Assembly (NCBI GenBank): GCA_021789495.1
Contig: JAJYJM010000023.1
Coordinates: 1-35,040 of the forward strand
Length of the DNA stretch: 35,040 nucleotides
Source: Nitrospirota bacterium
GTDB taxonomy: Bacteria > Nitrospirota > JACRHJ01
Direction: 5' to 3'
The stretch's first letter is position 1, and every line of letters begins with the position of its first letter. A program made the position numbers and the translations under genes. Under the pieces are notes generated by a model that was not told the origin of the DNA, made no database searches, and saw nothing but the letters and a program-made list of their open reading frames with translations. Shown here piece by piece: positions 1 to 15,840 of this stretch.

Positions 1-1554
1 CGTCTCCATCCCCTGCGCCTGCTCGGCGGACGCGGTCATAACGAGGCAATCGATAACAAGGTCTTCTTTAGGAATTCCGTGCGCGAGGCAAGCGTCCAGA
101 ATCTTTTGCGCTATTTCAAGGCGTGCTTCTGCGGTCTGCGGTATGCCGTTATCGTCAATCGTAAGTCCGACAACCGCCGCGCCGTATTTCTTCACGAGCG
201 GAAGTATCGATTCCAGCCTCTCCTTGTCGCCCGTTACGGAATTTACAAGGCACTTTCCCCCGACTTCTTTCAGTGCCGCCTCGATTGCCTTCGGGTCGGT
301 GGAATCTATCACAAGCGGCAGGTCCGTCGATTCCTGAGCCGCGCGCACAACCCTCGGCATGAGCGCCGCCTCGTCCGCGCCGGGAAGACCGACGTTTATG
401 TCTATTAGCGCCGCCCCGGCCTGGGTCTGCTCCCTGGCTTCTCGCTTCACGATATTAAAGACGCCCTTCGAGAGTTCCTCTGATAGCGCCTTCCTGCCCG
501 TAGGGTTTATGCGCTCGCCGATAACCGCAGGCATAAAAAATGCGCCGACGGATACGAGTTTTGTCCGGCTGGCAAGACGAGTGCCGCCGGTAGACCGGCT
601 TCGGGCAGTTACGCTGCCGTCGCTCTTTTTACGCACCGCCTCAGCTATTGCCTTTGTGTGCGCCGGATTGGAGCCGCAGCAGGAGCCGATTAACCTTACT
701 CCCAGGCCGAGGAACTTCTCCGCCCACTGCCCCAACTCTTCGGGCGAGGCGGGATAGACGGTTTTGCCGTCGATGAGCTTCGGAAGCCCCGCGTTCGGCT
801 GGAAGATGAGCGGAACGGACGCATAACAGGACATCAGCTTAGCCACTTCGTATAGCCCTTCCGGCCCAAGGGAGCAGTTCGCGCCGACTATATCCGCCCC
901 TGCCGCCTCCAGAACTGCGACCGCCACATCCGGCGGCGTGCCAAGGAGTGTCCGGAGGTCTTTCTGGAATGTCATAGTTACCGCGACAGGCAGTTTCGAC
1001 GCCGCCTTCGCCGCTATGACGGCACAACGGGCCTCTTTCAAGTCCGACATCGTCTCGATAAGCAGTAAATCCGCCCCGGCATCGGAGAGCGCCTCTGCCT
1101 GCTCGTAAAAGTTGGCGTATGCCGCATCGAAAGAAAGCTCGCCCACTGGCTCAAGGAACTTCCCCGTCGGCCCCATGTCGCCCGCGATATATATATTTCG
1201 AGAGGAAAATCCCCCCGACCCCCCTTTAACAAAGGGGGGCAAAGGGGGATTTACGGTTTCCCTCGCCGCCTTGACCGCCGCGCGGGATACTTCCGCGACC
1301 CTGTCCCCCAGGCCGTACTCGGAGAGTTTTATCCGGCTCCCGCCGAAGGTGTTCGTGGTAAGTATGTCCGCCCCGGCTTCGGCATATTTCCGATGTATTT
1401 CAGTAACGATTTCAGGATGTCCCAGGTTAACCGACTCAGGGCAGGCCCCGGCCCCAAGGCCGGATTCCTGGAGCATCGTCCCCATCGCGCCATCGACGAC
1501 AAGAACCCTGCCTTGCCCGCGTATTAATTCATTGATAAAATTGTTTTTATTCAA
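1..1554 (-). CDS. metH: Cobalamin-dependent methionine synthase, homocysteine and pterin domains (3'-truncated by window edge)
   Basis: This enzyme transfers the methyl group of methyltetrahydrofolate to homocysteine through cobalamin. The first 518 codons are present and the frame is still open at base 1. Residues 1-305 form the homocysteine methyltransferase barrel, opening with VLVVDGAMGTMLQESG. The expected zinc ligands are visible: Cys227 in GANC and Cys292/Cys293 in IGSCCGSNPAHT. From about residue 335 the pterin-binding domain begins, with VIGERINPTG, DINVGLPGADE and NSVTGDKERL. The start is TTG at 1554, with AGGGA a few bases upstream; there is no ATG that would leave the domain intact. 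Residues 102-119 (NPPLPPFVKGGSGGFSSR) are an in-frame palindromic repeat that other MetH proteins lack. The cobalamin-binding domain would lie off the window, so a two-domain folate/homocysteine methyltransferase remains possible. It is divergent from the DUF502 gene. Confidence 0.92.
   Translation of the reverse strand, partial: MNKNNFINELIRGQGRVLVVDGAMGTMLQESGLGAGACPESVNLGHPEIVTEIHRKYAEAGADILTTNTFGGSRIKLSEYGLGDRVAEVSRAAVKAARETVNPPLPPFVKGGSGGFSSRNIYIAGDMGPTGKFLEPVGELSFDAAYANFYEQAEALSDAGADLLLIETMSDLKEARCAVIAAKAASKLPVAVTMTFQKDLRTLLGTPPDVAVAVLEAAGADIVGANCSLGPEGLYEVAKLMSCYASVPLIFQPNAGLPKLIDGKTVYPASPEELGQWAEKFLGLGVRLIGSCCGSNPAHTKAIAEAVRKKSDGSVTARSRSTGGTRLASRTKLVSVGAFFMPAVIGERINPTGRKALSEELSKGVFNIVKREAREQTQAGAALIDINVGLPGADEAALMPRVVRAAQESTDLPLVIDSTDPKAIEAALKEVGGKCLVNSVTGDKERLESILPLVKKYGAAVVGLTIDDNGIPQTAEARLEIAQKILDACLAHGIPKEDLVIDCLVMTASAEQAQGMET
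1207..1252. repeat. Palindromic dispersed repeat inserted in the metH coding sequence
   Basis: The repeat is bounded by AAATCCCCC and GGGGGATTT, and has a perfect 9-bp core stem CCCCCCTTT-AAC-AAAGGGGGG at 1219-1239. On the coding strand it reads NPPLPPFVKGG. This is the signature of a repeat often seen mis-annotated as NPPLxPLxKGG proteins in diverse bacterial genomes. The metH frame is open across it. Confidence 0.85.
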
Positions 1555-8908: not shown

Positions 8909-8942
8909 TATGACTCCTTTAAACTGGTCCGGATTTCTTTTG

Positions 8943-8974
8943 GTTACTTTTCTTTCTCCGGAAAGAAAAGTAAC
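8943..8974. repeat. Perfect 14-bp hairpin between moaC and the chaperone gene
   Basis: GTTACTTTTCTTTC (8943-8956) pairs perfectly with GAAAGAAAAGTAAC (8961-8974) over a TCCG loop. The text resembles a dispersed repeat with GGTTACTTTTCTTT ends found in many genomes. It lies in the 88-bp gap after the moaC stop. No T-run follows it on the minus strand. Confidence 0.7.
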
Positions 8975-10619: not shown

Positions 10620-12593
10620 ATGGAAACGGACCGTCCGGAAACAGCTTCGTCCAAAACCACCGGAAAGATTTCCAGCGCCTGCTATCTCCTGTATGCAGCC
10701 GGATGCCTGATTCCGGGGCTTCTCGCCCTTCGGGACCTGCTCTTCGGCTATTCCTGGCATGTCTCCCTGCCGCTCTCCGGCGGCCTGGCTTTAAGCTTCG
10801 GGGGCGGCGGACTTTCGGCATATTTTGTCGTCATACTCTCGCTGCTCGTTTTTTGCGTATCCATATATTCGGCTGGATACGCAAGGCATTCCAGCGCGCC
10901 CTGGTCAGCGCTTATCCTCTACGGGATTTTCGTCTCCTCCATGTATGCCGTGTTCTACTCGGCTAATATCCCGGCGTTTCTTATCTTTTGGGAGACAATG
11001 TCTCTCTCGTCGTATTTTCTCGTCGTCTCGGATACGGAAAATATTGAAGCTTCGCGCGCCGGACTTCTATATGGCGTGATGACACATGTCGGCACGGCGT
11101 TTATCATGGCCGCTTTCATGGTCATGTTCTTCGCCACGGGGTCGCTTGAGTTCCCGATAATAAAGGCGGGGCTTGCGGGCGCGGGAGGGCTTCGCTCCGT
11201 CATATTCGTCCTTGCGCTTATAGGCTTTGGGACGAAGGCGGGCATCATCCCGCTTCATACATGGCTCCCAAGGGCGCACCCGGCGGCTCCGTCGAACGTC
11301 TCCGCGCTGATGTCCGGCGTGATGATAAAGTCGGGCATCTACGGGATACTGCTCGTCTCGCTCGATATTCTCGGCGGAGGGGCCGGCCTGCCGGCGCCGC
11401 TGTGGTGGGGCGTGGTAGTGCTCTCCGTGGGGGCGGTGTCCTCCGTAAAAGGGATTATGTATGCGTTGATGGAGCGCGACATGAAGAGGCTCCTGGCATA
11501 CAGCAGTGTCGAAAACGTCGGGATAATCCTGCTCGGCGTCGGCGCATCCATGATATTTTCTTTCAATAATCTTCCTTCGCTTGCCGGGCTTGCCCTCGCC
11601 GCCGCGCTGTATCACACGCTTAACCACGCGGTCTTCAAGGGACTTCTGTTCATGGGGGCGGGTTCAGCAGTCCACGCCACGGGCACTAAGAACATGGAGG
11701 AGATGGGCGGGCTTATAAAACGGATGCCCTGGACGGGTTTTTTCTTCCTTGTCGGCTCGGTCGCAATATGCGCGCTCCCGCCTTTCAACGGCTTCATGAG
11801 CGAATGGCTGACGTTTCAGTCCCTTATCATGGGGATAAAGACCTCCGTCGTCCTTACAAAGACCTTCATGCTCCTTGCCGGGGCCGCGCTGGCGCTCACC
11901 GGGGCGCTTGCGGCGTCGAGTTTTGTAAAGGCGTTCGGGATAAGCTTCCTGGGGGTTCCCAGAAGCCATGAGGCTGAGGCGGCGAAAGAAGCCCCTGCAA
12001 CCATGCTCCTTGGGATGGGTATTTTGTCTGCTGTGTGTCTCCTGCTCGGAATATTTCCCGGATACATGCTGAGGCTTCTCTCCGGCATACCTCTGCCGGG
12101 CCTTGGGAGCCTTCCGCAGTTCGCTCCCGGCGGTCTCGCCGTTACGGGCGTCGCCTGCTCCGGCGTTCTGCCGATAGTTCTGCTCGGCGCGCTTCTTGCC
12201 GGGGCCGCATTTATTTTTATTTTTCCGCTTGTCGCCGGGGGCAGGAGGAAGTCCATATGCGCCGACCCGTGGGACTGCGGCATTCGAAAACTTACGCCAA
12301 GGATGCAGTATACGGCGACCGCGTTTACTCATCCGCTTCGCCGGATATTCAAGAAAATATACAAGCCCAGGAAGGAAGTGCGGATAGAGTATATTGTGAA
12401 GCCGTTTTTCACCCGTGAGATAGAATACCGCTCCGAGATTACGCCGCTTGCCGAATCCTATTTCTACAGGCCGCTTGTCCGCGCGCTCCACAACGTTGCG
12501 CATTCGGCAAAGAGGCTCCAATCGGGCAATCTACAGCTTTATCTGGGATACATTCTGGGGACTCTTGTAATCCTGCTGGTGGTCTGGGGGTAG
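10620..12593 (+). CDS. hyfB: HyfB-like proton-translocating antiporter subunit of an Ehr-type complex
   Basis: This is a multi-pass subunit of the NuoL/MrpA antiporter family, of the type found as HyfB/HycC in hydrogenase-4 and related complexes. From the ATG at 10620 it has 657 residues. The family's charged membrane residues are present: Glu125 in FWETMSLSSY and Lys206 with His213 in GFGTKAGIIPLHTWLP. The C-terminal part has the HyfB-type sequence DPWDCGIRKLTPRMQYTATA, followed by a final helix. A TTG at 10587 would add 11 residues but lies only 8 nt from the predicted transcription start, so ATG is preferred although its ribosome site is weak. It is the first gene of six; one base separates its stop from hyfC. 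The partner subunits suggest it pumps ions without hydrogenase activity. Confidence 0.9.
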   Translation: METDRPETASSKTTGKISSACYLLYAAGCLIPGLLALRDLLFGYSWHVSLPLSGGLALSFGGGGLSAYFVVILSLLVFCVSIYSAGYARHSSAPWSALILYGIFVSSMYAVFYSANIPAFLIFWETMSLSSYFLVVSDTENIEASRAGLLYGVMTHVGTAFIMAAFMVMFFATGSLEFPIIKAGLAGAGGLRSVIFVLALIGFGTKAGIIPLHTWLPRAHPAAPSNVSALMSGVMIKSGIYGILLVSLDILGGGAGLPAPLWWGVVVLSVGAVSSVKGIMYALMERDMKRLLAYSSVENVGIILLGVGASMIFSFNNLPSLAGLALAAALYHTLNHAVFKGLLFMGAGSAVHATGTKNMEEMGGLIKRMPWTGFFFLVGSVAICALPPFNGFMSEWLTFQSLIMGIKTSVVLTKTFMLLAGAALALTGALAASSFVKAFGISFLGVPRSHEAEAAKEAPATMLLGMGILSAVCLLLGIFPGYMLRLLSGIPLPGLGSLPQFAPGGLAVTGVACSGVLPIVLLGALLAGAAFIFIFPLVAGGRRKSICADPWDCGIRKLTPRMQYTATAFTHPLRRIFKKIYKPRKEVRIEYIVKPFFTREIEYRSEITPLAESYFYRPLVRALHNVAHSAKRLQSGNLQLYLGYILGTLVILLVVWG

Positions 12594-12594
12594 A

Positions 12595-13542
12595 ATGGAA
12601 AGCCTTCAGTTCATGCTGATACTGCTCCTCTCGCCGCTCGCGCAGGGGATAATAAAGAAGATAAAGGCCATGATGCAGGGGAGGCGAGGGACGCCCGTGC
12701 TCCAGCCGTATTATGACCTGGCAAGGCTTTTTAAAAAAGACATGGTGATTCCCCGCACCGTCTCGTGGATATTCCACGGCGCGCCCTATGTCGTGTTTGC
12801 GTCCGTGCTCGCGGCGTCAATGCTTGTGCCGGTTTTCTCCGCCGGCCGGTCTACCGGCCTCTGGGCGGGGGGCGGGGTTGGTTTTTCCGGGATTGGCGAT
12901 ATTATCGCCACAATTTATACCCTTGCGCTCGGCAGGTTCTTTTTGGCGCTCGGAGGGCTTGACGCGGGCACGGCGTTCGGCGGCGAGGGCTCGAGCCGCG
13001 AGATGACCGTGGCCATACTGGTGGAACCGAGCATGATGCTTGCCATATTCACTGCGGCGGTTGCGAGCGGTTCTACAAACCTTGGCGTAATAGCAAACTC
13101 CGGGAGTTTTTTCTTCTCGCCCGCGCACGTCCTGGCCCTGGCGGCGTTTTTTGTCGCAATTATTGCCGAGACGGGCAGGATTCCTGTGGATAATCCCGAT
13201 ACGCACCTTGAGCTTACGATGATTCACGAGGGGATGCTCCTTGAGTATTCCGGGAAATACCTGGCCATGATGGAATGGGCGCATTACATGAAACAGATGC
13301 TGCTCTTTACCCTGGCGGCGGACCTCTTTTTCCCTTACGGGATGGCAGGAGCAGGCGCCGGTTTCGGGATCGCGGCGGCGGCAGGCTTCTGGGCGGCAAA
13401 GATGCTGATATTGTGCTTCGGGATGGCCCTCGCGGAGTCCACGAGGGCCAAGATGCGTTTTTTCCAGCTCCCGTCGCTTCTGGGCGCGGCGTTCGTTCTC
13501 TCGGCGCTTTCGATGATAACCTTTGTAATGACAGGAAAATAA
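12595..13542 (+). CDS. hyfC: HyfC-like (NuoH-family) membrane subunit
   Basis: This 315-residue subunit belongs to the NuoH/HyfC family, which joins the membrane arm to the peripheral arm of complex I-like enzymes. Family features are SPLAQGIIKKIKAMMQGRRG near the N-terminus, LQPYYDLARLFKKD at residues 36-49, and ETGRIPVDNPDTHLELTMIHE at 192-212, which carries the conserved acidic residues that face the quinone or cluster cavity in relatives. Several membrane helices follow. It begins one base after hyfB and ends one base before hyfE, so it is translated in the same unit. Group 4 hydrogenases and Ehr complexes both have this subunit; it does not by itself tell which this is. Confidence 0.92.
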   Translation: MESLQFMLILLLSPLAQGIIKKIKAMMQGRRGTPVLQPYYDLARLFKKDMVIPRTVSWIFHGAPYVVFASVLAASMLVPVFSAGRSTGLWAGGGVGFSGIGDIIATIYTLALGRFFLALGGLDAGTAFGGEGSSREMTVAILVEPSMMLAIFTAAVASGSTNLGVIANSGSFFFSPAHVLALAAFFVAIIAETGRIPVDNPDTHLELTMIHEGMLLEYSGKYLAMMEWAHYMKQMLLFTLAADLFFPYGMAGAGAGFGIAAAAGFWAAKMLILCFGMALAESTRAKMRFFQLPSLLGAAFVLSALSMITFVMTGK

Positions 13543-15755: not shown

Positions 15756-15757
15756 AA

Positions 15758-15816
15758 CGCCCTCTCCCAGGGCGCTAAAAGCGGCGCCCGTTCCCCTCTA
15801 CCGCAGGTGGAGAGGG
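15758..15816 (+). repeat. Hairpin-rich intercistronic gap between hyfF and hyfG
   Basis: Three stems are visible: CGCCCT/AGGGCG (15758-15774), GGCGC/GCGCC (15771-15788, an alternative pairing to the first) and CCCTCT...AGAGGG with inner ACC/GGT (15794-15816). The CCCTCT/AGAGGG text resembles a dispersed intergenic repeat. The gap is the break between the membrane-arm and peripheral-arm genes, so it might set their relative expression. Confidence 0.5.
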
Positions 15817-15840
15817 TTATAGCGAAAAAGGGGTTAATTT

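Follow-up and report, generated by a model that had tools for sequence, protein, structure and literature searches.

Palindromic repeats that have become part of proteins are best known from Rickettsia (RPEs, reported by Ogata et al. 2000); here we describe coding palindromes in a Nitrospirae lineage that is uncultured, where core enzymes carry them. RPEs are described as palindromic repeats of about 100–150 bp that lie in frame within conserved Rickettsia protein genes (PMC2229807, PMC10969869). GTAG/CGTC-tagged REPs are palindromes of 20–40 bp which are partly intragenic in several species; the intragenic copies include some in DNA repair (excinuclease) genes and tRNA synthetases, and loops or linkers have been proposed as neutral sites; the paper mentions neither Nitrospira nor Leptospirillum (PMC3733652). 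ERIC and Correia/NEMIS are described as small mobile sequences that bring open frames of their own and have fused in frame with genes of the host (PMC2229807). TMECO, which has the pattern CCCTCNCCC-loop-GGGNGAGGG-loop-GGGNGAGGG, is reported to be always intergenic in E. coli K-12, with no transposase or integrase remnants and no mobility genes nearby, and to show local instability (Holder et al. 2015, PMC4666352).

The stretch of DNA analysed here, referred to as the window (35,040 nucleotides in all), contains a metH gene with a 46-nt inverted repeat. This is probably a short non-autonomous inverted repeat that was inserted in frame, is translated as NPPLPPFVKGGSGGF and is tolerated in a loop. 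Like the RPEs as described, it is a dispersed palindrome lying in frame in a conserved gene, where it encodes a peptide and probably does little damage. It differs in being a 46-nt unit of triplex type in a Nitrospirae MAG, rather than an element of about 100–150 bp in Rickettsia; the described length sets the two apart, and we call their sequences unrelated by description alone. The unit ends in neither GTAG nor CGTC, and no association of the repeat with Y1 tyrosine transposases was found in 61 genomes, both of which distinguish it from REPs. ERIC and Correia/NEMIS have other sequences, are longer and in some cases have TA target duplications (PMC2229807). In anatomy it resembles intrastrand triplex motifs of TMECO type, which have a C-rich, a G-rich and a third arm, short loops and many copies in many genomes (PMC4666352). 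The hairpin part of TMECO has no match in the window, and the arms of the metH unit have a sequence other than that of TMECO. A further difference is that TMECO is reported as always intergenic in K-12 (PMC4666352), whereas the triplex-type repeats described here are found inside protein genes and in frame with them; motifs of this type can form part of proteins.

In-frame palindromes in proteins are already known from RPEs and intragenic REPs, and the metH case is another repeat in another lineage. A literature search largely confined to papers outside subscription did not turn up any account of this repeat within coding genes, of in-frame triplex motifs, or of Nitrospirae in such a context, and among the matches listed for the exact repeat peptide and DNA words there were unrelated papers only.

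The metH fragment and its 46-nt unit

The window is the entire contig C16 of the Nitrospirae genome studied here (G000; 2.08 Mb, 53 contigs, 97% complete), which was compared with four congeners (G001–G004) and a family member (G005). The first 518 codons of metH occupy 1..1554 on the minus strand, with an assumed TTG start, and the open frame runs off the start of the contig. Assignment to the cobalamin-dependent methionine synthases follows from the homocysteine and pterin domains (Pfam S-methyl_trans, unbroken across residues 18–307, and Pterin_bind, from residue 347) and from the aligned zinc cysteines. The latter are Cys227 (codon at 874..876, minus strand) and Cys292 with Cys293 (676..681, minus strand), which are expected to be zinc ligands, as in the T. 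maritima enzyme. In a 30-sequence alignment Cys227 is invariant and Cys292–Cys293 nearly so, in agreement with an earlier note on this DNA that regarded the zinc cysteines as intact. The last 109 codons of metH, also open, match the extreme end of contig C52 (G000:C52:53325-53651); the middle part was not found, the gene being split by an assembly gap. With metH cut in this way, its open frame is documented for these two terminal segments. The same note had stated that a metH pseudogene accompanied by a second intact copy would refute its reading; a search of G000 found a single gene with a homocysteine domain and no second copy of that domain.

The inverted repeat lies at 1207..1252, and its minus strand corresponds to MetH residues 102–116, NPPLPPFVKGGSGGF. 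The unit is laid out as AAATCCCCC-CGA-CCCCCCTTT-AAC-AAAGGGGGG-CAAA-GGGGGATTT, with AAATCCCCC and GGGGGATTT as its outer arms and AAATCC and GGATTT as its ends. The perfect core reported earlier, with 9-nt arms around AAC, was found again at 1219..1239, and CCCCCCTTT-AAC-AAAGGGGGG had no match at up to three mismatches in 100 dinucleotide shuffles of the window. The repeat is also in frame within the homocysteine domain, as had been claimed: all 518 codons are open and the S-methyl_trans match continues across it. The size of the addition must be corrected, since the repeat accounts for 15 residues (102–116) rather than about 18 (102–119), and set against the relatives the protein has become longer by 6 to 13 residues net.

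The ribosome would read through the repeat as NPPLPPFVKGGSGGF, in which case the predicted tryptic peptides of MetH include ETVNPPLPPFVK and GGSGGFSSR. As a near-palindrome, the unit is almost its own reverse complement, and both orientations therefore encode nearly the same peptide; the opposite orientation of the metH unit, read by eye, would encode NPPDPPLTKGGKGGF. Entry in either orientation would consequently give, in one frame, almost the same stop-free Pro/Gly-rich peptide, NPPxPPFxKGGxGGF. This carries a warning for annotation, in that peptides such as NPPxPPFxKGG can derive from repeats.

The palindrome described earlier is real, but its triplex-type structure had been missed. The published search for triplex motifs specifies three arms (a pyrimidine arm, a purine arm and a third one) with stems of 6–15 nt and loops of 1–6 nt, and allows one mismatch in stems above 7 nt or, in other passages, of 7 nt and above (PMC4666352). 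We used a scan written for this analysis rather than the authors' program, with stems of at least 8 nt and a purine-rich middle arm. The core together with the third arm fits the rules for an intrastrand triplex on both strands, with a 9-nt stem and 1 and 0 mismatches. The same fit is found in 80 of 108 other copies of the repeat, as against 5 of 108 when each copy's flanks were shuffled, and an in-frame copy in a gene of the PF09936 family fails the scan. The metH repeat thus fits the rules for a triplex-type sequence, more than a palindrome, and could fold as a hairpin or an intrastrand triplex. The RNA hairpin predicted for the coding strand has an energy of −34.0 kcal/mol, and none of 200 shuffles was as low. 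Ten first-order Markov controls of the window gave no match in the triplex scan. The sole other match in the window, at 8933-8970, is A/T-rich (CTTTTCTTTCC...GGAGAAAGAAAAG) and lies between two minus-strand ORFs.

The metH loop in relatives and in a predicted structure

The repeat is absent from metH in all five relatives, G001–G005, whose metH genes are 67–85% identical to that of G000 at the DNA level. The segment between the anchors AAVKAA (AAVALA in G005) and GPTG is 30 residues long in G000, 24 in G004, 23 in G002 and 17 in G001, G003 and G005. In all four congeners the loop holds other text, including an unrelated dispersed palindrome, GCCGGTNNACCGGC; metH of G004 has a further 15-nt insert, CCGGCAGACCGGCTT, which the window and G002 do not have. 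The earlier note had counted unrelated text at these residues in sister genomes against an insertion, and such text was found in all four congeners. The insertion stands nevertheless, since what was inserted is itself a member of a repeat family. Instead, at the level of sequence comparison, it shows that the metH loop (about residues 101–121; 1189..1254, minus strand; between helix 83–101 and strand 122–127) is hypervariable. The congeners do not provide a cleanly empty site: other text fills their loops, which blurs the precise boundaries of the insertion and would mask a target duplication. Against these relatives, and as far as the aligned genes indicate, the 46-nt repeat is shown to be an in-frame insertion in metH that occurred in the lineage of this species.

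An alternative source of such a pattern would be the assembly itself, if the assembler of this MAG had joined repeat text into metH. The genome is a 53-contig draft in which metH is itself cut by a contig end, but the frame is kept, both flanks are metH of the genus, the metH copy is identical to neither of the remaining copies in G000, and independent genomes have in-frame copies as well. An artefact of this kind appears very improbable.

An AlphaFold2 model of MetH residues 1–311, made with 30 sequences, has a mean pLDDT of 88 and a fold that matches T. maritima MetH (rmsd 2.0–2.4 among the chains listed); in a sequence alignment with the T. maritima enzyme, a gap falls at the position of the insert. 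Mapped onto this predicted structure, as the earlier note had proposed, the insert falls between the helix and strand named above, in a loop of low confidence (pLDDT below 50 at residues 109–114). In TIM barrels, active sites are found at the C-terminal ends of the strands and helix-to-strand loops on the opposite face. A helix-to-strand position would therefore put the insert on the side of the barrel opposite the zinc site, a placement that would let the enzyme tolerate it. The loop suggested earlier thus has a counterpart in the model, while tolerance by the enzyme is our interpretation: the insert is probably a harmless surface loop. We infer a working enzyme and a nearly neutral insert, with selection retaining only in-frame, stop-free copies in such loops. 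In sister species the same loops are occupied by unrelated palindromes. The suggestion that metH underwent an RPE-like event with a different repeat is borne out by the absence of the insert from the five relatives, by related copies elsewhere and by the low-confidence loop of the model.

It could be argued that the insert is functional, its hairpin or triplex regulating metH or the new loop altering the enzyme advantageously. The strong fold in the message would suit such a role, as would the presence of some dispersed palindrome in the metH loop of all five genus members. However, the text, length and type vary among the sisters, and a large number of unrelated genes also contain the repeats; this looks like tolerance and not like a metH-specific role. 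We consider a function to be quite unlikely.

Distribution and mobility of the repeat

The pattern CCCCCTTTNNNAAAGGGGG, at up to one mismatch, is present in 30 of the 61 genomes of the phylum sample, and copy numbers range from none in G001–G003 to 3 in G000, 11 in G004, 55 in G005 and 173 in G048, the highest. A reversed-pattern control gave no matches in most genomes and at most 27 (G020). The description of the repeat as dispersed therefore suits the phylum sample well and G000 poorly. The other two copies in G000, on contigs C8 and C7, are 54 and 52 nt long and not identical to the metH copy, which is the only one of the three in a protein gene; copies within other genes, which the earlier note had proposed to count, are found in core enzymes of relatives. 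A looser search of G000 with AAATCCCCC-N5-CCCC and two mismatches matched 78 times in the forward direction, compared with 28 times for the control, and was set aside as largely chance.

The relation of the repeat to reading frames was followed at 87 loci, the copies listed for six genomes and a subset of the total, where open frames are unproven as genes. In 24 of these, a single frame stays open through 50 codons or more to either side of the copy, and in another 24 both sides are open in different frames. Thirteen of 20 scanned ORFs with repeat copies, MetH included, match Pfam, a proportion that is no unbiased rate because 19 of the 20 were chosen for a wide open frame on both sides. In nine of the 13, conserved sequence flanks the copy on both sides: MetH, MetG, the PF09936 RNA methyltransferase, MnmG, LipB, an SNF2-type helicase, a CCG iron-sulphur protein, an FG-GAP/ASPIC protein and a TPR membrane protein. 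The in-frame copies in MetG, MnmG, LipB and the RNA methyltransferase belong to genes of relatives, and a further scan likewise identified MetG, MnmG and LipB.

These in-frame copies bear on whether the repeat might be skipped, through ribosomal bypass of the hairpin or removal from the message, to leave a MetH of ordinary length. The coding-strand hairpin is very stable, and bypassed inserts are known elsewhere. Bypass needs no open frame, however, whereas the copies in metH and in other conserved genes are in frame and stop-free. A scan of 10 of the 24 different-frame loci found no gene split out of frame by the repeat; it is a weak test, since at six loci at least one side matches nothing, and only the four in which both ORFs match different families are informative. 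Skipping seems extremely unlikely, and we retain the reading in which the repeat is translated.

REPs are typically small palindromes able to insert into genes (PMC3733652), and G000 has one match to a Y1 transposase. The repeat could accordingly be a REP element mobilised by a Y1 tyrosine transposase (RAYT). Yet Y1 counts do not track repeat counts across the 61 genomes (rho 0.17, p 0.19): G028 has 100 copies of the repeat and no Y1 match, while G009 has 12 Y1 matches and no copy. Moreover, the repeat core, at up to two mismatches, was found at none of 30 Y1 loci, and the GTAG or CGTC end is missing from the unit. Mobilisation by RAYT is not supported by the untracked counts and the Y1 loci without copies, and we regard it as quite unlikely. 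A search for a target duplication, which a MITE or other transposon derivative might show and which the earlier note had recommended looking for, found nothing constant among 13 copies viewed with their flanks; an ATCC repeat was seen at the metG copy alone. The most plausible routes of movement are an event at the DNA level that the repeat, once folded, would trigger, or a putative enzyme acting in trans.

Two further features of the distribution were observed. Many AAATCCCCC repeats in G005 occur as hairpin pairs 33–48 nt apart (L166, L168, L172, L183, L184, L186), and these paired hairpins resemble REP dimers. Among viral contigs, at least 30 stretches hold the exact repeat (L308–L337), and these may be host flanks of proviruses.

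A second palindrome and shared loops

The palindrome found in the metH loop of all four congeners, GCCGGTNNACCGGC, is genus-specific and, going by its sequence, unrelated to the 46-nt repeat. It has 95 copies in G000, 33, 56, 52 and 92 in G001–G004 and 1 in G005, and a reversed control gave 0 or 1. This second family, and the reuse of loops described below, were missed in the earlier account. The window holds two copies. One, at 586..599, lies within metH, in the linker that follows its homocysteine domain, reads SRSTGG and is also present in G002 and G004; the other, at 12845..12858, lies in the open frame 12571-13539 and reads GRSTGL.

Most copies of GCCGGTNNACCGGC in genes are presence counts and not demonstrated insertions. 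Of the 95 copies in G000, the 50 that were listed were examined. In 49 of them the frame that scores best as coding runs through the palindrome without a stop, and in 27 the sequence on either side scores as coding and has 30 or more open codons. Of 31 ORFs with GCCGGTNNACCGGC, hand-picked among those with long open frames, 23 match NCBIfam, including PurL, CobQ, YggS, UvrC, Der, Mfd, GatA, MnmA, PdxA, XerC and RsmD, among others. In RsmH, RNase J and an RND adaptor, GCCGGTNNACCGGC precedes the matched domain and may lie before the true start. A YggS-family gene (L274 1501-1535, G000:C4) was seen to contain two adjacent 21-bp palindrome copies, reading EAGPPAS-EAGLPAP, and this pair, spaced by 21 bp, matches the 14 residues by which the protein exceeds the family profile.

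In the PF09936 methyltransferase, the same variable stretch holds the AAATCCCCC repeat in G004 and GCCGGTCGACCGGC in G000. The MetG linker has the AAATCCCCC repeat in G004 and two different TMECO-type motifs in G002 and G005, all in frame (L154 2027-2073 in G004; L233 3702-3739 in G002; L234 2794-2828 in G005). Before the tRNA-binding domain, this linker was thus seen to carry a triplex-type repeat in three relatives, with at least two sequence types. Along with MetH, this hints that unrelated repeats may use the same permissive loops; the loops concerned are few, three in all. The occurrence of unrelated repeats in one loop across sister species is unusual. They amount to replicates, set up by nature, of an experiment that asks which loops can accept an insertion and whether folded DNA repeats drive loop evolution.

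It is possible, though we put it forward only tentatively, that triplex and hairpin repeats are a general source of loops in this lineage, such that the loops of core enzymes swap repeats and GCCGGTNNACCGGC decorates dozens of proteins likewise. Folded repeats would break or re-copy DNA locally, and the MetH, MetG and RNA methyltransferase loops would, as a result, exchange repeats in frame. If this is true, the density of GCCGGTNNACCGGC in core proteins recalls Rickettsia.

Elsewhere in the window, an 84-nt stretch with inverted GC-rich runs (15756-15840) lies between two plus-strand ORFs; it is absent in G004 and mostly unlike the sequence of G002.
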